DNA of 64,000 bases from Candidatus Saccharimonadota bacterium (GTDB taxonomy: Bacteria > Patescibacteriota > Saccharimonadia > Saccharimonadales > Saccharimonadaceae), in NCBI GenBank assembly GCA_017432025.1, contig JAFRJX010000003.1:62001-126000 (forward strand), written 5' to 3'. The notes under the pieces were generated by a model. That model had not been told where the DNA came from. It saw nothing but the letters and a program-made list of their open reading frames with translations, and searched no databases. The position numbers and the translations under genes were made by a program. Positions within the stretch are counted from its first letter, which is position 1; each line of letters starts with the position of its first letter. This document shows positions 46,634 to 59,890 of the stretch, one piece after another.

Positions 46634-46766
46634 CTGTTTCATTAAATTTATTAATGAACGAATTATAACACACATGCTTGAAAAAAGCAATAAATTTTGC
46701 TAAAATTTCCCTCAAGCACTTATCTATCAGCGGATAAGAGCAATTTAAAAAGAGGAGGTGGCAGTA

Positions 46767-47408
46767 ATGTCATTCGAAATCCCGCGTGATATGCTGAAAA
46801 TCACCACTAACGCAGAAGAGTATCGTATGCTCGAAGATCTGAAAGAAAGGAGACTTTATCTCTACCGCGAGATCGAACCACTCGGCTACGAAGAAACCTC
46901 GAACGAATATGCTTCAACGGCAACCCATATTGTCCAGTCAATCCTGGACTTTAACCGCGATGACATGAACGTTCCAATTTCAGATCGCAAGCCAATCAAG
47001 TTGTTCATCAACTCTCCCGGCGGAGACGTCACAGACGGTATGCCTATAATCGCGGCTATCGAACTCAGCAAGACTCCGGTCTACACAATCAATCTTGGTC
47101 AGTGGTGCTCAATGGCTTTTCTCATTGGTATTACTGGCCACAAACGTTTCTCGCTCCCGTATGCGACCTTCCTGCTCCATGAGGGCACTTCCTTTGCTGG
47201 TGGTGCCACCAACAAGGTTCAGGACCGGGTCAAATTCGACGAACGGGTCGAAAAAGAAGTCATCAAACCTCACGTGCTGAAGCACAGTAACATGAAACAA
47301 CACGAATACGATGCCCTGGCACGCGTTGAGTACTATCTGCTTCCGCCCGACGCCAAGGAGCGTGGTTTCATTGACGAAATCGTCACCGATTTGAACGTTA
47401 TCCTCTAA
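46767..47408 (+). CDS. ClpP-like serine protease
   Basis: 213 residues from ATG 46767; AGGAGG lies 8 nt upstream, favouring this over an earlier GTG. INSPGGDVTDGMPIIAAIEL is the oxyanion region. Nucleophile Ser115 is in LGQWCSMAFLIGITG, and His138 is in ATFLLHEGTSF. In alignment the third triad residue, Asp in ClpP, falls on Glu in YYLLPPDAKERGFIDEIV, although a nearby Asp might serve. It is therefore a divergent ClpP or a ClpP-like paralog. It stands alone with a TTGAAA/TAAAAT promoter and a CTTATC/GATAAG leader hairpin. Confidence 0.82.
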   Translation: MSFEIPRDMLKITTNAEEYRMLEDLKERRLYLYREIEPLGYEETSNEYASTATHIVQSILDFNRDDMNVPISDRKPIKLFINSPGGDVTDGMPIIAAIELSKTPVYTINLGQWCSMAFLIGITGHKRFSLPYATFLLHEGTSFAGGATNKVQDRVKFDERVEKEVIKPHVLKHSNMKQHEYDALARVEYYLLPPDAKERGFIDEIVTDLNVIL

Positions 47409-51507: not shown

Positions 51508-51822
51508 TTACGGGAACATTTCGTGGTAATACCGGGCGTAGACTCGCCGAATCTCGGTGCCACTCATCGAATGGAGCATATAAAGCTTTTCGTCAGCCTG
51601 CGCCTTGATAGATTCTAACTTGTCATATTCACGATCGTAAAATTTTCGGTCCGGGGTTTCCCCGTTCTTCCATTTCTCTTCCAATTTCTTTGAAAAATTG
51701 TCCGCCAAATAATCACAGGCTGCTTTATAACGGATGAATAAGTAATCGGTCAAGATTTCGTGCATGCGGAGCTCTTCATCATCAAGATAAATCGAATTAG
51801 CCGTAATAATCCCTCCTTTCAA
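51508..51822 (-). CDS. small helical protein of unknown function, start uncertain
   Basis: Up to 104 residues, no family recognised. Highly charged and helical (DYLFIRYKAACDYLADNFSKKLEEKWKNGETPDRKFYDREYDKLESIKAQADEKLYML). There is no ATG in the first ~18 codons. The nearest candidates are a TTG at 51822 or an unusual ATT a few bases after a strong GAAAGGAGGG. That purine-rich site lies inside the reading frame, suggesting that the true start is just downstream of it. A TGTTATAAT lies further up, near 51860. The AT-rich island begins immediately upstream of it. Confidence 0.6.
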   Translation of the reverse strand: MKGGIITANSIYLDDEELRMHEILTDYLFIRYKAACDYLADNFSKKLEEKWKNGETPDRKFYDREYDKLESIKAQADEKLYMLHSMSGTEIRRVYARYYHEMFP

Positions 51823-51952
51823 AGAACTTACATGACTTCGTCATATATATCTATATTATAACATAAATAGATTAAAAAGTAAATAGCATAAGCAACTCAA
51901 GAACCTGCCCCAGCTAGAATGGTTTTTAAGTGTTCTTTTTCTGTTTTTGTGT

Positions 51953-52411
51953 TTACCATCTTACTACATTAAAATCTGAATCATCAAAATGGAATGCATC
52001 GCCACCCCACTTATTTCTATAGTATAGATTCTGTTTATAGATATCGTCAACTCCTAATAATAGGATATACGGACGATAGCAGTAGGCCTCGACATAATTG
52101 AAATGAATATCCGATAAGAAATCTTCACGGCTGGTATCGAGAAAACCAGACGGATAATTGGCAGCAATTTGGGATATTAAATTATATCTATTAAGCAAGC
52201 CTGTGTCTGACTTATTGTTCTCACACCCATTCTTAACAAATTGTATTTGTCTCTTTTGTAAATCTCGGTATTTTTCAAGTTTAGCTTTGTCTTCATTTGC
52301 ACTAGCAATAGTGGTTAATAAAAAAGAACATTGTATAACATTCGCAACCACGCTAATGCATAGTAAAACGATTACGATAATAATTGCATGGCTGTTCTTA
52401 TTATTACTCAT
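51953..52411 (-). CDS. single-pass membrane protein, tandem paralog B
   Basis: 152 residues. A short basic N-terminus, one membrane span (AIIIVIVLLCISVVANVIQCSFLL) and a helical segment EKYRDLQKRQIQFVKNGCENN, followed by an extracytoplasmic domain ending DSDFNVVRW. It is paralogous to the gene upstream: the YR(D/E)LQ-x-(R/K)QI-x-x-VK-x-x-C block, one following Cys, and the terminal (V/K)(R/K)W are shared. Its ATG directly follows the stop of paralog A (TAAATG). No known family. Confidence 0.7.
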   Translation of the reverse strand: MSNNKNSHAIIIVIVLLCISVVANVIQCSFLLTTIASANEDKAKLEKYRDLQKRQIQFVKNGCENNKSDTGLLNRYNLISQIAANYPSGFLDTSREDFLSDIHFNYVEAYCYRPYILLLGVDDIYKQNLYYRNKWGGDAFHFDDSDFNVVRW

Positions 52412-52963
52412 TTACCACTTTACCTTATCAAAAGCATTATCCTTTAATTTGACCGATCCGTCCCTGAATATTTTATTAACATTTTCAGAATACTCACCTT
52501 CAGTATAGCCAGAAATCACTAAGGCTGGAATTTTGCATCGAAGGTTTATATTTGCTTTATACGCGTTCGCAAGGGTGGTGTTGTAAAGCCATATTATTTT
52601 TAAATATTGTTGAAGTGTATTATTAAATGCTTCTTCTATTTTACTACAATTCTGCTTTACCGTTTCTATCTGTTTATTTTGGAGTTCTCGGTAATTAGTA
52701 AGCCTCCAAGACGCATCGTCTGCGTCTTTTTGTAAATAAAACTGCGCAAACGCTTGGCCGATATTTGCCAAAAGACAAATAGCAAACAAAACATATAGTA
52801 ATGCTATCCTTCCTCGCTTACTGTTATTGAGTGGCGCCTGTTTGACTGAATCGTTTTCCTCTATTTGTACTGTTTTCGGTTTTACGGTATTATTGGTGTC
52901 TAGATTTTCTGAAGGAGAATCAAGATCGTCTAATCCCGTATTGCTAATATCGTCCGCATCCAT
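52412..52963 (-). CDS. single-pass membrane protein, tandem paralog A
   Basis: 183 residues. An acidic Asp/Asn/Ser-rich cytoplasmic tail (~45 residues) precedes a membrane span (IALLYVLFAICLLANIGQAFAQFYL). Then come TNYRELQNKQIETVKQNCSKIEEAF and an outer domain ending AFDKVKW. Shares sequence and layout with the next gene. Both end in Trp at the extreme C-terminus, a rarely seen shared feature that may be functional. Low GC compared with the flanking genes. Function unknown. Confidence 0.7.
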   Translation of the reverse strand: MDADDISNTGLDDLDSPSENLDTNNTVKPKTVQIEENDSVKQAPLNNSKRGRIALLYVLFAICLLANIGQAFAQFYLQKDADDASWRLTNYRELQNKQIETVKQNCSKIEEAFNNTLQQYLKIIWLYNTTLANAYKANINLRCKIPALVISGYTEGEYSENVNKIFRDGSVKLKDNAFDKVKW

Positions 52964-53095
52964 ATCTGTTTCAAATATAAAAACCTATTATTACTCTTAT
53001 GATAACACTTAAAATAAAAAAGAAGAAGGCTTGAAATAAGCTAGTACTATTACGAAAAACGAAAATACATGTTTTAGTAATAATTCGGTACCTCG

Positions 53096-53124
53096 TTGAC
53101 TTTTCCAATACTTTTGATTATTCT
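53096..53124 (+). promoter_or_regulatory. promoter of the 53129 gene
   Basis: TTGACT and TATTCT are separated by 17 bp, with only 4 nt from the -10 to the ATG. Confidence 0.55.
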
Positions 53125-53128
53125 TAGA

Positions 53129-53401
53129 ATGATTACCATAAAAATGAAAATGAAAGATTTTATACATAAATACGGAGAGATAATTAGCGTAATACTATAT
53201 ATGATAGGATTATTTTTCGCATTTGGTGTATATTACATATGGTCAGACATTAGCGGAGCCACATATGTTAGAGCATCACTAGCGTCCTTACCAGGCGCTT
53301 TTCTCGCCTTCTTATTCAAAGATAATATAGTTATCCCAATCATTCTTACTATTATATTTCTCGTAGGTGGTTTTTTGATTTCCAGGTACAGTAAAAAATA
53401 A
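53129..53401 (+). CDS. small two-span membrane protein
   Basis: 90 residues. Basic N-terminus (MITIKMKMKDFIHKYGE), two or three hydrophobic spans (IISVILYMIGLFFAFGVYYIW, ASLPGAFLAFLF, IVIPIILTIIFLVGGFLI) and the tail SRYSKK. No family recognised. In the AT-rich island; small membrane proteins of this sort are sometimes toxins or effectors of conflict systems, but nothing here proves it. Its stop lies 8 nt before the -10 of the structured RNA. Confidence 0.6.
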   Translation: MITIKMKMKDFIHKYGEIISVILYMIGLFFAFGVYYIWSDISGATYVRASLASLPGAFLAFLFKDNIVIPIILTIIFLVGGFLISRYSKK

Positions 53402-53406
53402 AGATG

Positions 53407-53415
53407 TGATATAAT
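53407..53415 (+). promoter_or_regulatory. extended -10 of the GC-rich RNA
   Basis: TGATATAAT ends ~6 nt before the GGG where GC-rich sequence starts. Confidence 0.75.
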
Positions 53416-53420
53416 GATAG

Positions 53421-53861
53421 GGATCTAACTGCGGTGCGGTAAGCCGCCCGTGGTAATGATTTACTCAGGGGAAGGGGACGTTCTCTGGTCGGGGTAAGAG
53501 GCCGTGGCATAGCCACAATCACCTCACACGCGCCTTTGCGCGGAGATTTATCCCGGGTAGAAACGCCCCTGAGTAAAAAGCCCCTCGGGGCAATACCGCC
53601 GTAGGGACGCCTGCGGATGGTACACGACGCCGCATCTGCCAATTGGCGGCGCGGAATGACTCGCACGGGGAAGGCCGTGCAGGGTGAAAAAAGTCCATAG
53701 CGGGACACGTCCTGCCTATGGGATACGGATGAAGCGCTGCGGATTCCGTAGCTCGGCCGGCTACCGCCGGTAACAGAGCTCCCGGGACCCACTCGGTGTC
53801 CGGACGTCGAGCCTTGGAGCTCTCGCACATTTCCCTACCCGCTCCAATGGAGCGGGTTTTT
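53421..53861 (+). ncRNA. GC-rich structured RNA (~440 nt), unknown family
   Basis: A ~60% GC block in AT-rich surroundings, bounded by an extended -10 and a perfect terminator, with no credible reading frame. Helices include a 12-bp long-range stem TTTACTCAGGGG/CCCCTGAGTAAA (53460-53471 with 53565-53576) and hairpins GTGGC/GCCAC, GCGC/GCGC and GCCCC/GGGGC. Further ones are GCACGG/CCGTGC, CCATAG/CTATGG with inner GGGAC/GTCC, TACGGA/TCCGTA, CCGGC/GCCGG, and a closing GAGCTCC/GGAGCTC (~53776 with ~53816). Conserved cores of RNase P (GAGGAAAGTCC, ACAGAACCCGG), tmRNA (tRNA-like ends) and SRP RNA are not found. It lies directly upstream of the ATPase/HTH pair. Confidence 0.78.
53838..53861 (+). terminator. 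terminator of the GC-rich RNA
   Basis: CCCGCTCC-aat-GGAGCGGG followed by TTTTT. Confidence 0.93.
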
Positions 53862-54048
53862 ATATGCGCGCGCATAATAAATGATAGATTTGATGATTGA
53901 CATAAGCAGTCCAAAGGCCTCAGCACCAAAGGCTCCGACGACGAGTGGATGTTAAAAGGAAGATGATTTATAACAAAGCAGATGGACTCGTTTGATTATT
54001 ACTTTTTTAATGCTACTGAGTAAATCTGGGATCAATTAAAAAAGGGTA

Positions 54049-54077
54049 TTGACATTATTTTTTGAACGTGATACAAT
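54049..54077 (+). promoter_or_regulatory. consensus promoter of the GHKL ATPase operon
   Basis: TTGACA and TACAAT are separated by exactly 17 bp, with TGA before the -10. The 53877-54048 stretch before it holds no gene that I can see. Confidence 0.85.
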
Positions 54078-54112
54078 AAGCGAAAATTAATAATTTAATG
54101 CGAGGAATCCCC

Positions 54113-55567
54113 ATGGATTACAAAGAACCAAGGGGTGGGCAAGAAAACATACTTCCTGATGCAGCAGGCCTTTTTTATGCATTAAGAAGTATGGGCTACG
54201 AGAACACAGCTGCAGTAGCCGACCTTATCGATAATTCTATTGATGCAGAAGCCAATAATATTTGGATTTCGGTAGATGAAGACCTGAACAAAATCTTTAT
54301 TGCAGATGACGGTGTTGGTATGTCGGAAGACACGCTTCACGATGCTATTCGACTTGGCGGCAAAAAGGCTCATGATGGCGCCTCTGATCTGGGCAAGTAT
54401 GGCCTAGGTCTTATTACTGCCTCTATTTCGATGGGCCGTGTAATTCGTATTATTACGAAAAAAGATGGTGCGTACAATACAGCCGTGCTAGATTACGATG
54501 CCATTCGCCAAACGAATCTGTTTAATGCGGATTTTCATAAATCAACAGATACGGAAATTGCAAGCTTCAATTTCCGCACTAATAATTCAAAAAGTGGCAC
54601 AGTATTAGCCATTGACAAGTGCGATAAATTACAATACACAAGAGCAAAAGATCTAATTAGTGCCGTTGATGAATACGTCGGCGAAGCCTTTCGCGCATTC
54701 CTTAAGAGTGGGAAGAAGATATTTATCAATGGTTCGGAAGTTCATCTATATGACCCTCTTCTCACCGGTTTCGGCACGGCGATAGTTGATACGGATATTG
54801 ACATAAAATCAAAATCTGGTATTGAAGGAAAAATGCATGTGCTAGCGGTTAAAATTCCAGATCAAGGCCCAAAAGCCAATAAGGCTCTTCGGCTGAATAT
54901 TAAAGGCCAAGGTTTTTATATCTTGAGAAACAGACGTGAGGTAGCCGCAGCGTTGGAATTCCCTGAAATCTTCAAAAAACATAATGATTTTAACCTATTA
55001 AGGATCGAACTCGGCTTCAATTCGGATCTTGACGATTTGATGGGCGTCAACTTGAAAAAACACGACATTGCGCCATCGAATGAGATTATCGACGCTCTTA
55101 AGGTCGTGTTGGATGAGCCAGTCAAAAAAGTGCGCGAAGAAATGAAGGAAAAACAAAGGAGAACACAAGATGACAATCCTTTCATTCTTTCACAGACGCC
55201 AAAAAAACCTGGAAAAACAGTTTTGACGCCTACCAAAAAAGAAAAAGAAATCGAAGTGCCAGTCCCTAACGATGAATCAGCGAAAGAGTTAAAATTCGAA
55301 ATAGTATTCTCGAATTACGCCGGCGACGAAAAAGGCCCACTTTTTAAGCATACGATCCAGGGTGAAAAAATCACGGTTCTTTATAATACTTGTAGCGAGT
55401 ACTACTATGAGAAAATGCCAGCAGATGGCAGTAGTACGAAAACGAAGGAAGTGCTCGATGATATTATTAAAGCGAGTATTATGTCGTATATCAGGCAATC
55501 TGATGCACTTTCATCTATCGGCCCTTTCCTCGAAGAAGTATCAAACGCCTTTTCAAAAACGGAGTAG
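54113..55567 (+). CDS. GHKL (MORC/MutL-like) ATPase
   Basis: 484 residues from ATG 54113, which has GAGGA 7 nt upstream (an in-frame ATG at 54098 is an alternative). The Bergerat ATP-binding fold is plain: ADLIDNSIDA (N-box, Asn41), ADDGVGM (65-70) and GKYGLGL (94-100). Then come an S5-like transducer region (~150-300), a Lys/Pro/Glu linker and a ~100-residue C-terminal domain (ELKFEIVFSNYAGDEKGPLFKHTIQGEKITVLYN). Prokaryotic MORC-like ATPases are known from restriction-like and other conflict systems. No MutL endonuclease motif is seen. It is followed 3 nt later by an HTH protein. Confidence 0.85.
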   Translation: MDYKEPRGGQENILPDAAGLFYALRSMGYENTAAVADLIDNSIDAEANNIWISVDEDLNKIFIADDGVGMSEDTLHDAIRLGGKKAHDGASDLGKYGLGLITASISMGRVIRIITKKDGAYNTAVLDYDAIRQTNLFNADFHKSTDTEIASFNFRTNNSKSGTVLAIDKCDKLQYTRAKDLISAVDEYVGEAFRAFLKSGKKIFINGSEVHLYDPLLTGFGTAIVDTDIDIKSKSGIEGKMHVLAVKIPDQGPKANKALRLNIKGQGFYILRNRREVAAALEFPEIFKKHNDFNLLRIELGFNSDLDDLMGVNLKKHDIAPSNEIIDALKVVLDEPVKKVREEMKEKQRRTQDDNPFILSQTPKKPGKTVLTPTKKEKEIEVPVPNDESAKELKFEIVFSNYAGDEKGPLFKHTIQGEKITVLYNTCSEYYYEKMPADGSSTKTKEVLDDIIKASIMSYIRQSDALSSIGPFLEEVSNAFSKTE

Positions 55568-55570
55568 TAA

Positions 55571-56983
55571 ATGATAGATTCGCAAGCTAATGTAAAGACT
55601 CTTGGGCTTTCTAAGCGTACCGTCAATACGCTTATTAGAAATGGCGTTAGTTCCCTAAGCGAATTAATAACCTTGTCGGAAGAAGATATCATGAATATGG
55701 ATGGGATGGGCGCTGGCGGCCTAGGCGAAATCAGGGATTTAGCTCAACAGATTGCTGTGAATGATGATTTAACTATCCAGACTTACAGTATTGGCGAATA
55801 CTGGAAAGAAGTTTCAAGAGATGAGAGAAATTTCAATGTACTTGTAGATTATTACAATGGCAATTCAAAACTTACCCTTCAGGATCTTGCTGATAAATAT
55901 AAAGTATCAAGAGAGCGAATTAGGCAAATTATTTCTAATGGCACGGAACGCATTTATTATGCATTTACGAGCGGAATTATCAGCCCGAGAATTGCCGAAA
56001 AACTAGTAGAATATGCGAATAAGCGCACCGAAATCCATATGATTAATATCTCGGACGCTGTTTTTACGGGAATTGGCATCGCGAATTTAGCCGCAGCATT
56101 TAGGCCAAAAGTATTTCAGATAGTTTCCAACAGAAACGTAAACGGAAATTGGTTTACGAATGTTGACGATAATTTAAACTCAATCCTGAACATTGTTGTT
56201 GACGGATTAAAAAACCACTCCAAACCATTATTAATTTCCGAAGTAAAGGAGCTATATTCAATCGACGATAGTATATTAATGAGCATTAAGGGCATCATTG
56301 AAAAAGATGGCTACGTAACGCACGAAAAAAACAAAGTAACTACTGGTAGCGATAGGTTTTTTATTATTACGAGATATCTCGAAAGCGTCAATAGGCCAGC
56401 CTCAATCCCAGAGATTATCAGTAATACCTGCCTAACTTTTGGCCAAATCCGTGGAGCATTAAGTTACAAGAATACATATGTTAATGTGGGAAAATCTGTT
56501 TATGATCTTGTAGACCGCGAATATAACGAATTATCGGCTGCAGAACTTGCCGTCAATATACTAACGGCCGAAAATCGCGCGCTTAAAATAGAAGCAGTTA
56601 TAAAATATATACAAAGATATAGAAACATAAGCAAGACTAGTGCTATCGTCTTGCTATATGATTCGCGACTTTTATTCATACACGATAACTATGTGCTAAT
56701 CAAGGGTTGGCCATTGGAAATGATTAAAAGAGAAACGATTAAAAAAGATTATAGAGTATCTCTCGAAGATGCAGTGTTAGAAACAATTAATGCGTCGGAT
56801 GAAATTTTTGATCGTGAAAAAATTACTGATGAACTAAAAAAATACGGCAACTCCGTGTCTATGAATCCTAACTCTATTAGGGGAACATTAATTAGACTTG
56901 CCGATAAAGGAAGAATCATACGTGTAGGTGGGGCAAGAACAGGATGTTACGCAAGAAAAATAGTAAATGGCATCGCGGAGTAA
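55571..56983 (+). CDS. alpha-CTD-like / sigma-region-4 / winged-helix protein
   Basis: 470 residues. Residues ~9-62 (LGLSKRTVNTLIRNGVSSLSELITLSEEDIMNM) resemble the RNA polymerase alpha C-terminal helix-hairpin-helix domain. Residues ~100-128 (LTLQDLADKYKVSRERIRQI) are a textbook sigma70 region 4 helix-turn-helix. The remaining ~340 residues contain several helical repeats of winged-helix type (SVNRPASIPEIISN, INASDEIFDREKITDELKKYG). It contacts DNA and perhaps RNA polymerase. It is coupled to the ATPase gene (3-nt gap), so the two likely act together. Confidence 0.8.
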   Translation: MIDSQANVKTLGLSKRTVNTLIRNGVSSLSELITLSEEDIMNMDGMGAGGLGEIRDLAQQIAVNDDLTIQTYSIGEYWKEVSRDERNFNVLVDYYNGNSKLTLQDLADKYKVSRERIRQIISNGTERIYYAFTSGIISPRIAEKLVEYANKRTEIHMINISDAVFTGIGIANLAAAFRPKVFQIVSNRNVNGNWFTNVDDNLNSILNIVVDGLKNHSKPLLISEVKELYSIDDSILMSIKGIIEKDGYVTHEKNKVTTGSDRFFIITRYLESVNRPASIPEIISNTCLTFGQIRGALSYKNTYVNVGKSVYDLVDREYNELSAAELAVNILTAENRALKIEAVIKYIQRYRNISKTSAIVLLYDSRLLFIHDNYVLIKGWPLEMIKRETIKKDYRVSLEDAVLETINASDEIFDREKITDELKKYGNSVSMNPNSIRGTLIRLADKGRIIRVGGARTGCYARKIVNGIAE

Positions 56984-56988
56984 CAAAA

Positions 56989-57258
56989 ATGTGTGTGGAA
57001 TTAACAAAACATTACATCAAGAGATTCAGAAAACGCATTGCAAGAACGGATCGTATTGAACTTTTTGCTGAGGAAGCCCTGCAAAATGGCAAAGTACTAT
57101 CGGAGGCCAAAAGTAGTAGATATGTTAAAAAGCTAAAATATAAAGAAATCGTGAATGGTAGCACTGCGATTCTCTATAAGGGATGCGTCCATTGGTTCAG
57201 GGGCAACGTAGCAATCACCCTGTACCCTCTCCCACAGAAAATGCACCACAAGATTTAG
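56989..57258 (+). CDS. small phage-type hypothetical protein
   Basis: 89 residues from ATG 56989, with GCGGAG nine nt upstream. TKHYIKRFRKRIARTDRIELFAEEALQNGKVLSE is followed by RYVKKLKYKEIVNGSTAILYKGCVHWFRGNVAITLYPLP. This resembles small phage/plasmid proteins in which a helical H..R.R motif precedes a beta-sheet with a terminal 'hydrophobic-T-hydrophobic-x-L-P' strand, perhaps distantly DUF4258/RelE-like. Unrecognised role. Co-transcribed with the two genes upstream (5-nt gap). Confidence 0.65.
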   Translation: MCVELTKHYIKRFRKRIARTDRIELFAEEALQNGKVLSEAKSSRYVKKLKYKEIVNGSTAILYKGCVHWFRGNVAITLYPLPQKMHHKI

Positions 57259-57265
57259 GAGTAAA

Positions 57266-57757
57266 ATGGATAACGACATTATATATAGCCATAGAGTTAA
57301 AGGTACATACTGTCCACAATACGATTATTACGAAATACATAAAGATGGGACAGTTAAGTTCGAGGGCGGTCAAATCTATAATGAAAAAGAGCGAATCGGG
57401 TGTATGGGCAAGATTCCACAATATGTCGTCGATGAAATAGAAAGAATCATAAAAGACAACCCAAGGGTTTTTGTGATAGACGAAATAACTAATAATGATT
57501 ACTGCTGCACGGACGGTGCGTATACGACATTCTTCTTCTCGTATAGGCAAAGCAAAAATGAGATCGAAGTGTACGATATAGAAAGATTTATCGATCTAAA
57601 AAAAGACGGAATAATCTATCGCGATGCCCTGCTCTTAATCAAAATCGAGAGAAAGATTGAAAGAATTCTGACTGAAATCGGAATTAACCCTCAAGAAATA
57701 TGCTATGGCCCATGCGTTTCGCCATGCATTACTCCACTTACTCCGAAATATCTATAA
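57266..57757 (+). CDS. hypothetical protein
   Basis: 163 residues, GGAG 5 nt before the ATG. No known family. It contains CPQYDYYEIHKDGTVKFEGGQIY, a YCCTDGAYTTFFFSYRQSKN region, a helical RIERILTEIG-like segment and a cysteine-rich end CYGPCVSPCITP. There are seven cysteines in all. No signal peptide. It follows the previous gene by 7 nt, so it is the fourth gene of the ATPase operon. Confidence 0.65.
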   Translation: MDNDIIYSHRVKGTYCPQYDYYEIHKDGTVKFEGGQIYNEKERIGCMGKIPQYVVDEIERIIKDNPRVFVIDEITNNDYCCTDGAYTTFFFSYRQSKNEIEVYDIERFIDLKKDGIIYRDALLLIKIERKIERILTEIGINPQEICYGPCVSPCITPLTPKYL

Positions 57758-57817
57758 TAAAACAATGGTCAAGATACTTTGGCTTGAACTCTTATGGTAC
57801 ATTTTCTCTACCCAAAA

Positions 57818-57826
57818 TGATATAAT
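57818..57826 (+). promoter_or_regulatory. extended -10 of the 57833 gene
   Basis: TGATATAAT lies 6 nt before the ATG. Leaderless. Confidence 0.72.
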
Positions 57827-57832
57827 AGATAT

Positions 57833-58039
57833 ATGGAAGAAGTAGAGAGTAGAATAATCGACTACAAAGATATTAAACTAAAAATTATAAAACGCAAAGA
57901 CGGCGAGTTTATTTTTGAATACATTCCTGAGAAAAAGACGACAACGGTGCTACGATGTTTCTGTAGAAATGATAACGAACGTGCAATTGAAAAATTCTAC
58001 TTAAATATTAAACACGGTACCTACGGCCCACTAGCCTAA
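57833..58039 (+). CDS. small hypothetical protein with leaderless promoter
   Basis: 68 residues, no family recognised. Charged, beta-like (YKDIKLKIIKRKDGEFIFEYIPEKKTTTVLRCF), no signal peptide. Own promoter directly at the start codon, unlike the operon before it. Its stop overlaps the convergent CBS-protein gene by 4 nt, an arrangement that could allow mutual interference. It may be a small inhibitor or regulator. Confidence 0.6.
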   Translation: MEEVESRIIDYKDIKLKIIKRKDGEFIFEYIPEKKTTTVLRCFCRNDNERAIEKFYLNIKHGTYGPLA

Positions 58040-58755
58040 TAATCTTTACTTTGAGGCATATCCCACGGCGATATGATACCAAGGATACGGTTGTTTGGCA
58101 GACCATTCTGAGTGATAAAGATTAAACCGACCCTTTGGTTTGCACTGAGCGCCTCGCTAAAGATTTCCCGTATTTCGATAATTGTTGCATCTGGCGAAGC
58201 GAATCTGAAACACTCGGTTGAATGGTTTTTTAATGGTAACAACCCTTTTATGTTTTTATCATTGAAGGTCGTTGTCTCTTCTATTACTACTATATCGTCA
58301 TTAGAAAAAAGAGATAGAAGGGTATTCTCGCTAAAAACACCAATAACACGACCATCGTCGAGAATTGGAATGTGCGTATAGGTATTCTCAATCATCTTCC
58401 TAATAATCGGTCGTACAGTGTCAGTGATGGCAGCAGAACAAACATTTTGGGCATTCACCATCAATGATCTTGCAGTTATCGGTTTTGCCACGCTCTCCCT
58501 TATCGTATTAAGGAAATTAATCAATTCGCGTTTTGGGATAATTGGATAGCCACCGCATAAAGAATCATGAGATAAAAGATTGCGTATTTCTTTGCACATA
58601 TCTAACCTTTTCTTGTGCATTCGATACTCTTTTTGATTACCAAGGAATACTATGGGATTATCTTTAACTTGGCTACCATTATTATACCTTTCCTTAATGC
58701 TTGTTTCTAAGTATCGATAGTTGACTAAAAAATCATCTCCATTTTTTTCGTCCAT
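58036..58755 (-). CDS. HEPN-like plus CBS-pair protein
   Basis: 239 residues. The N-terminal helical domain ends with KEIRNLLSHDSL; R58 and H63 fit the HEPN R-x4-H motif. A tandem CBS pair follows from ~93 (ARSLMVNAQNVCSAAI, KMIENTYTHIPILDDGRVIGVFSENTL, FRFASPDATIIEIREIF, RILGIISPWDM). CBS pairs bind adenosine nucleotides such as AMP, ATP or SAM. A nucleotide-controlled HEPN protein is thus implied. It is the last gene of a three-gene operon (start 2 nt past the preceding stop). Confidence 0.78.
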   Translation of the reverse strand: MDEKNGDDFLVNYRYLETSIKERYNNGSQVKDNPIVFLGNQKEYRMHKKRLDMCKEIRNLLSHDSLCGGYPIIPKRELINFLNTIRESVAKPITARSLMVNAQNVCSAAITDTVRPIIRKMIENTYTHIPILDDGRVIGVFSENTLLSLFSNDDIVVIEETTTFNDKNIKGLLPLKNHSTECFRFASPDATIIEIREIFSEALSANQRVGLIFITQNGLPNNRILGIISPWDMPQSKDY

Positions 58756-58756
58756 A

Positions 58757-59059
58757 TTATCTATTATTCTCTCTAAGATAATTAACTAGCATAAACACAT
58801 CGATGTCTTTTTCAAGATATCCACGCATGATTTCATAATCTCGCTCTGAAGTCTTTTCGTTCTTAAACTCTTCCAATAAATAGTAAAGAGTTTTGAATTT
58901 AATTGTCGGCTTAATCGTAGGGAAAACGCGAATCATGTCGACCAGGCGCTCATCATCTATCGCATTGAGCGTCTTTTCGAATGCCTTTTTCAGTTTTATA
59001 TAGTCTGATGACTCACTCCCTATGATTAATTCCTTGAAGTTTTTATCGATTTGGTACAT
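58757..59059 (-). CDS. small helical protein between two HEPN genes
   Basis: 100 residues, all-helical and charged (SSDYIKLKKAFEKTLNAIDDERLVDMIRVFP, RDYEIMRGYLEKDIDVFMLVNYL). No known family. AAGGAG lies 4 nt before the ATG. It overlaps the HEPN gene before it by 17 nt and lies 1 nt before the HEPN-CBS gene. The position, between two HEPN genes, is what one would expect of an antitoxin or adapter, but this is inference. Confidence 0.65.
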   Translation of the reverse strand: MYQIDKNFKELIIGSESSDYIKLKKAFEKTLNAIDDERLVDMIRVFPTIKPTIKFKTLYYLLEEFKNEKTSERDYEIMRGYLEKDIDVFMLVNYLRENNR

Positions 59060-59624
59060 TTTGCTCCTTTCTTTCTAGCATCATACATAAAGTATTATTA
59101 CAGATAATAAAAAGGTCCTTTTGGCTATCTAAATCATATGGGTTCTTGATGCCATGGAACATATTATTCCGGACACGTGTAATAATCAATAACAAAAAAT
59201 GAAGCCTGTCTGCACTGGATTTAGCATGCATTATCCTTTTAAGATCACCCTCGTCAATATCCTTATAAATACCAATAACATTCCCTTTTTTATCCTTTTT
59301 AGGACGATTAATGTCGAAATGTCTCTTCAGTGCATTACATTCAAAAATGCCGTAATGTTTTCTGATATACGAAACAAGCATTATGTATAACTCTTTTATC
59401 CTCTCTCGATACTCACTATCTATTTTAGACTCATTCTTGCCGAGTTCATCGAGACAAAAATTTTTAAGCTCCATAATCTTTTGGTCATTATGGTGAAAAC
59501 AGTTTTCGTACTCGTTCCAAAGAATTGCGAAATCAGAAATTTTCATCCTCGTATCAAAATGAACGCACATATTTTCGTTGATATAGTCATCTATATGGTC
59601 GTAATCGTTGTGTTCGTCCAACAT
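59043..59624 (-). CDS. HEPN-motif protein (Apea/MAE-like)
   Basis: 193 residues from ATG 59624, which has GAGGAG just upstream (a GTG at 59657 is possible). Mostly helical. Near the end is ITRVRNNMFHGIKNPYDL: R152 and H157 in the R-N-x-x-x-H form typical of HEPN ribonucleases and the abortive-infection-like RNNxFHG(G/I)K group. The final helix is DLFIICNNTLCMMLE. A short leader from TGATATAAT near 59690. First gene of the operon. Confidence 0.75.
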   Translation of the reverse strand: MLDEHNDYDHIDDYINENMCVHFDTRMKISDFAILWNEYENCFHHNDQKIMELKNFCLDELGKNESKIDSEYRERIKELYIMLVSYIRKHYGIFECNALKRHFDINRPKKDKKGNVIGIYKDIDEGDLKRIMHAKSSADRLHFLLLIITRVRNNMFHGIKNPYDLDSQKDLFIICNNTLCMMLERKEQNVPNR

Positions 59625-59765
59625 ATTCTCCTCTTGCCAAAACCTCAAAATAGGCACTCATCGTGCCCATCAGAATTATTATATCATATTAATCCGTTCC
59701 TTTACGAAAAGGAAATCTGAATTCTATTCATATCGTCTCGTCTCGTCTACTCTGGCAATACTATG

Positions 59766-59799
59766 GACAAAAATAATGCCTTAAAGGCATTCTTTTTTT
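59766..59799. terminator. terminator after tRNA-Leu(GAG)
   Basis: AATGCCTT-AAAGGCATT hairpin with T8 on one side and A5 on the other. Acts on the tRNA transcript. Confidence 0.75.
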
Positions 59800-59890
59800 T
59801 GGTGCGCCTGACTAGACTCGAACTAGCACAGCCGTGAATGTGGCCACTACCACCTCAAGGTAGCGTGTCTACCAATTCCACCACAGGCGC
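59800..59890 (-). tRNA. tRNA-Leu(GAG)
   Basis: A 91-nt class II tRNA. GCGCCTG/CAGGCGC acceptor, anticodon stem CTACC/GGTAG with loop TTGAGGT (anticodon GAG, reads CUC/CUU), long variable arm, T-loop TTCGAGT, encoded CCA at 59800-59802. Its 3' end faces the AT-rich island. Confidence 0.94.

Follow-up and report, generated by a model that had tools for sequence, protein, structure and literature searches.

The large bacterial RNAs ROOL, GOLLD and OLE form homo-oligomers (PMC12286853). ROOL (Rumen-Originating, Ornate, Large) is often encoded near tRNA genes, and GOLLD, which likewise shows tRNA proximity, has a 3' region that is conserved throughout, whereas the rest of the molecule varies (PMC12286853). 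In a 64,000-nucleotide stretch of DNA (hereafter, the window) from an 859-kb Saccharibacteria genome, we analysed an RNA of about 440 nt that is in the style of these three RNAs and, by covariance-model test, is a member of none of them. Like ROOL, it is a large, GC-rich, stand-alone structured bacterial RNA of no known function that is found in tRNA proximity and in ruminant sources, some of its homologues coming from ruminant MAG records (roe deer). It differs from ROOL in length (~440 versus ~660 nt), in giving no match to the ROOL covariance model at either gathering or permissive scores, and in its surroundings, in which phage or prophage context was looked for and none was found. Besides tRNA proximity, a partial likeness to GOLLD may be seen in the constant 3' domain and variable centre, but here a 5' hairpin is constant too; moreover, the GOLLD model gives no match, phage context is missing, and the present RNA is much shorter than GOLLD, which often exceeds 800 nt. 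To OLE, a large ornate RNA, it is comparable in style only, since there is no covariance-model match and OLE-type neighbours were not recognised. It also recalls the HEARO/omega RNAs of IscB-TnpB in being a large structured RNA near variable genes, but it matches none of these and no nuclease gene was recognised at any of its seven loci. Outside subscription journals, we found no description of such an RNA in Saccharibacteria or Patescibacteria.

The RNA gene occupies 53421-53866 (+) when taken through the end of its terminator, and its limits are marked by composition, by signals and by conservation. In the GC profile, an abrupt rise at 53421-53861, from ~0.31-0.34 to 0.52-0.56, is followed by a drop back; the RNA itself is 61% GC and its surroundings 34-40%. 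The minimum free energy of the RNA is -215.9 kcal/mol, compared with -175.8 ± 6.4 for shuffled sequences (z = -6.2), and none of 100 shuffles folded as well. An extended -10 element, TGATATAAT (TGA-TATAAT), lies at 53407-53415 (+), and TGnTATAAT is retained in six close homologues; in the genome G377, which carries the most divergent homologue, TTGACA and TATGAT stand in its place. At the other end, an intrinsic terminator at 53837-53861 (+) consists of a hairpin (53837-53857) and a T-run. The hairpin and T-run pattern by itself is no better than chance (1 seen, 1.3 expected), but the terminator contains two compensatory pairs and is retained in every homologue that is not truncated by a contig end. 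Thus, the GC jump and the extended -10 that a preliminary description of this locus had reported hold up, and its terminator does so by conservation in homologues. The same description had found no reading frame. That is correct for the sense strand, on which no ORF is conserved among the homologues compared, and incorrect for the antisense strand, on which ORFs of 158 and 136 aa run across the RNA. Because the antisense ORFs do not keep their frame from one homologue to the next and the sense strand has no conserved ORF, we rejected both as coding; the antisense ORFs look like by-products of high GC. Judged by these sequence features, 53421-53861 (+) is a stand-alone non-coding RNA gene that looks transcribed.

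High GC and a strong fold are typical of housekeeping RNAs, and a divergent RNase P, tmRNA, SRP or 6S RNA would fit both properties. We consider this reading extremely unlikely. Rfam at gathering score identified two tRNAs in the whole window and nothing on the RNA. Permissive Rfam scans of the window RNA and the loci of four homologues returned sub-threshold matches only, which sit on the terminator and the hairpin preceding it (anti-hemB, 25.6 bits against a cut-off of 49.5). RNase P is found on another contig of the same genome (G000:C2:52700-53038, 229 bits), and RF00010, the bacterial class A RNase P model, gives no match at the RNA locus. ARAGORN finds just two tRNAs in the window, and neither a tmRNA tRNA-like domain nor a tag frame was found. 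In addition, 167 of the 174 genomes of the genus lack the RNA, a distribution that alone makes a housekeeping RNA unlikely. The earlier view of the locus as a structured RNA that lacks an RNase P core is therefore upheld, and the RNA stands outside all Rfam families, at gathering and permissive scores alike.

The seven carriers among these 174 genomes, as identified with our second covariance model (R2), are the window's genome, G050, G020, G418, G411, G402 and G377, all of them gut-type Saccharibacteria; five of these seven known sequences come from one small clade. DNA similarity search initially gave G050 (95%) and G020 (81%); with a covariance model built on the 3' part, G418, G411 and G402 were recovered as well, along with a strongly divergent, shorter copy in G377. 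Model R2 scores the 3' domain (helix P10, below) at 81-108 bits in all seven carriers, and the RNA is single-copy, with no second match within its own genome. Outside the genus, covariance-model scores were at chance level among the 295 order-level and 195 class-level genomes sampled, the weak matches in G226 (19.6 bits) and G130 (23.6 bits) being no higher than a search of hundreds of genomes would yield by chance. A pattern for the 5' hairpin, scanned against 198 genomes, hit the window only, besides two unrelated matches with three mismatches. A pattern scan of ~85,000 species genomes returned 62 places, six of which are Saccharibacteria carriers already known, and the remaining places score at most 18.5 bits with R2. 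Short BLAST matches to the RNA occur in G097 and others. As far as these searches show, the RNA appears restricted to one Saccharibacteria genus, and more diverged members may exist elsewhere.

Comparison of the copies defines the unit that is conserved. The block shared with G050, G418 and G402 runs from 53401 or 53402 to 53862-53866, and the window DNA flanking 53401-53866 is not shared at the same distance in these genomes. Because the alignments stop at the -10 and just past the terminator, where the flanks differ, we take 53401-53866 as the conserved unit. Identity over the block is 94-96% in G050, G418 and G411, compared with 84% over the stretch with a divergently placed 104-aa gene. 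These bounds, together with a block identity above that of the 104-aa-gene stretch, argue most clearly that what is selected is the RNA rather than the island in which it lies.

Within the unit, conservation is concentrated at the two ends. When the window is compared with G402, identity is 91% in the 5' hairpin and 98-100% in the last 100 columns before and through the terminator, but 46-73% in the centre. For the centre, the corresponding values are 51-84% between the window and G020, and 40-73% between G402 and G020. Among these three copies, the ends are 76-100% identical and the centre 40-84%, mostly 40-73%. The divergent G377 copy keeps P1, P7-P10 and the UCUCGCAC tail, and its middle is shorter and different. 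By these alignments, the central domain is replaced between copies, or fast-diverging, yet still structured.

The fold consists of at least ten helices that are backed by covariation across the aligned sequences, all of them on the + strand. P1, the 5' hairpin (ACUGCGG-U-GCGG-UAAG-CCGC-CCGUGGU, 53428-53454), is conserved even in G377 and shows a compensatory C-G to U-A change in G020, plus G-U/A-U exchanges. The variable central domain (53455-53684) comprises P2, which encloses the hairpins P2b and P2c, followed by P3-P6, with compensatory changes in P2, P2b, P4, P5b and P6. P2 with its contents spans 53460-53577 and is a 12-bp long-range helix in which UUUACUCAGGGG (53460-53471) pairs with CCCCUGAGUAAA (53566-53577). 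This helix, which had been proposed from the window sequence, is indeed present, and two compensatory changes in G020 preserve it. In G402, P2 is replaced by UGCUAGG/CCUAGCA, yet P2, P2b and P2c in the centre retain a three-way arrangement of the same kind. The hairpin P7 (CCAUAG-CGGGA-CACG-UCCUG-C-CUAUGG, 53695-53721) carries four compensatory pair changes relative to G377. The helix P8 (UACGGA/UCCGUA, 53725-53750) has a compensatory change in G377 and is tentative, because the window's minimum free energy fold prefers a competing local hairpin, CUGCGG-AUU-CCGUAG. The hairpin P9 (53756-53771) has a large loop insertion in G377. P10 (53775-53823), the helix of the 3' domain, is formed by AGAGCUCC and GGAGCUCU with an apical stem and a palindromic UCCGGA loop, and four compensatory pairs fall in P10a. 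The tail that follows P10, UCUCGCAC (53821-53828), has identical letters in every complete copy, and its first three bases also close P10. P1 and the tail may in addition form a GUGCG/CGCAC pairing.

The preliminary description had called for a test of covariation, and the result supports the fold. When a plain alignment of five sequences is read against the fold predicted for the window alone, both sides have changed at 14 pairs, compared with 5.3 ± 2.0 in shuffles and with 2-5 in a control in which the pairing was slid along the alignment. Likewise, 94.9% of the paired cells of the alignment are able to pair with the window fold, compared with 37-44% when it is slid. For the 3' domain with the divergent G377 copy included, both sides have changed at 6 pairs, versus 1.6. 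The hand-fitted helices show compensatory change at 27 of 117 pairs, a count that is biased towards pairing by construction and is thus descriptive.

Downstream of the RNA in the window lie two genes (54098-56983, +), for a GHKL ATPase resembling MzaB and for a protein that combines sigma-70 region 4 with an RNA polymerase alpha C-terminal domain. This pair recalls MzaA (sigma-70 family) and MzaB of the MZA anti-phage system, with scores far below the cut-offs (for the ATPase against NCBIfam MzaB, 117 bits, far under the 850-bit cut-off), and no other Mza genes were seen nearby. The preliminary description placed the RNA in this ATPase/HTH system, perhaps as its guide, sensor or product, and asked whether it always travels with the genes at 54113-56983. 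It does not. The two adjoin in the window, and in G402 they share a site, separated by a single 240-aa gene, but these are the only two of the seven RNA genomes in which both are present. The RNA occurs without the ATPase/HTH genes in at least three of the seven loci (G050, G418 and G377); in the incomplete genomes G020 and G411, no ATPase was found elsewhere. Conversely, four of the six genus genomes with the ATPase lack the RNA, namely G293 (L246), G354 (L247), G367 (L248) and G028 (L249), in which the relatives of the ATPase are 37-62% identical. The occurrence of RNA and genes is thus independent, which the preliminary description had itself named as evidence against its proposal. Furthermore, the gene pair has its own promoter-like site, TTGACA-17-TACAAT, at 54049-54077 (+), behind the RNA terminator. 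A guide role in particular is made less likely by the lack of any second match to the RNA within its genome. Taken together, these observations refute the assignment, and we consider it very unlikely that the RNA serves the adjoining genes.

The remaining neighbours vary as well. In the window, an AT-rich variable region (51830-59800) extends from the 104-aa gene to the 3' end of tRNA-Leu(GAG), and its content is wholly different in G050 and G418 except for the RNA. In G050, which is 98% complete, the RNA lies at the same site, between the 104-aa gene and tRNA-Leu(GAG), with 95% identity. Downstream of the RNA are the ATPase in the window, an antisense ORF and then tRNA-Leu in G050, and the 240-aa gene in G418 and G402. 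The G377 copy has a 184-aa gene on one side and, downstream, a gene of carboxypeptidase type. The G020 copy is at a different place, where the 3' half of a different tRNA (by eye, probably Leu) follows at a distance of ~60 nt, and G020 shares with the clade only the syntenic tRNA-Leu region. The contigs of G020 and G411 end at or near the RNA. Judged from these contexts, the RNA has occupied at least three places.

The 104-aa gene (51508-51822, -) is divergent to the RNA in the five-genome clade and matches no family in Pfam, PHROGs or NCBIfam. Among 170 genus genomes searched, it is present in exactly five, all of them RNA carriers, and this, together with the terminator at the end of the RNA, would suit a leader or attenuator acting in cis, or an RNA that regulates the 104-aa gene. 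We find either role quite unlikely. G020 and G377 have the RNA and lack the 104-aa gene, ~1.6 kb of other genes separates the two in the window, and the genes downstream of the RNA vary in identity and strand across carriers, so that a cis leader of one gene is excluded. Between the 104-aa gene and the RNA, in the window's genome only, there are two adjacent, similar ORFs (51953-52411 and 52412-52963, -) that look like single-span membrane proteins and match no family. Near the RNA in G020 are two adjacent small paralogous genes of 92 and 101 aa (L006, 6409-6687 and 6825-7130) with no assigned family. Comparison of the ORFs around the loci yielded no convincing common protein partner: the clade and G377 share one ClpP-like gene only. 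The ClpP-like proteins of the window (46758-47408) and G377 (L048, 5789-6487) are 43% identical, possibly by coincidence, and their genes lie ~6 kb and ~2 kb from the RNA, respectively.

The RNA might also belong to a mobile or phage-satellite element that inserts beside tRNA genes, resembling ROOL and GOLLD near tRNA islands. Its sporadic occurrence in 7 of 174 genomes is consistent with this, as is the tRNA half next to the G020 copy; in the window, G050 and G418, moreover, the variable region stops at the 3' side of tRNA-Leu(GAG). However, Pfam and PHROGs scans of the neighbours recognised no integrase or phage-type gene near the RNA, the window contains just one copy of the first ten bases of the tRNA 3' end, and within the clade the RNA persists as the cargo changes. 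No match to the RNA was found by blastn in phage and plasmid collections. Exact-pattern scans of IMG/VR gave chance matches or nothing, the single match (L035) being without further resemblance and apparently inside a coding stretch. The earlier suggestion of a phage-related RNA thus finds no support, and a mobile element seems to us a rather improbable explanation.

We favour, with a probability of roughly 0.7, the interpretation that the locus is a stand-alone gene whose product is a structural non-coding RNA acting in trans, constant at its ends and variable in its middle; the ground for action in trans is solely the changing neighbourhood. On this interpretation, the conserved signals suggest that the gene would be transcribed from its own promoter, with transcription stopping at its own terminator. 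Because the RNA outlives every change of neighbours, the product is probably a free structural RNA, acting alone or with proteins that would be encoded elsewhere. A common scaffold, or a part for assembly or binding, may be formed by the constant ends (P1, P7-P10 and the tail), and the changing centre may be the adapting part, under diversifying pressure. The palindromic UCCGGA loop on P10 could pair copies loop to loop, as in large ornate bacterial RNAs. A more speculative possibility, which we hold only tentatively, is that the RNA represents a class of its own among large ornate RNAs, and the first known to us that is specific to Saccharibacteria; it would assemble via its constant ends (for example, through the UCCGGA loop), and its exchangeable centre would be swapped between strains like a specificity module.

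We file the RNA as a new family among large structured RNAs of no assigned role. Such RNAs are rare and have proved to be machines of an unusual sort or assemblies made of RNA only. It is also clear from this case that an RNA can lie next to a defence-like operon without being part of it, and a replaceable structured centre flanked by constant ends is a design that can be tested. Since Saccharibacteria, with their reduced genomes, are expected to shed dispensable DNA, the RNA is likely to be useful to the cells that have kept it.
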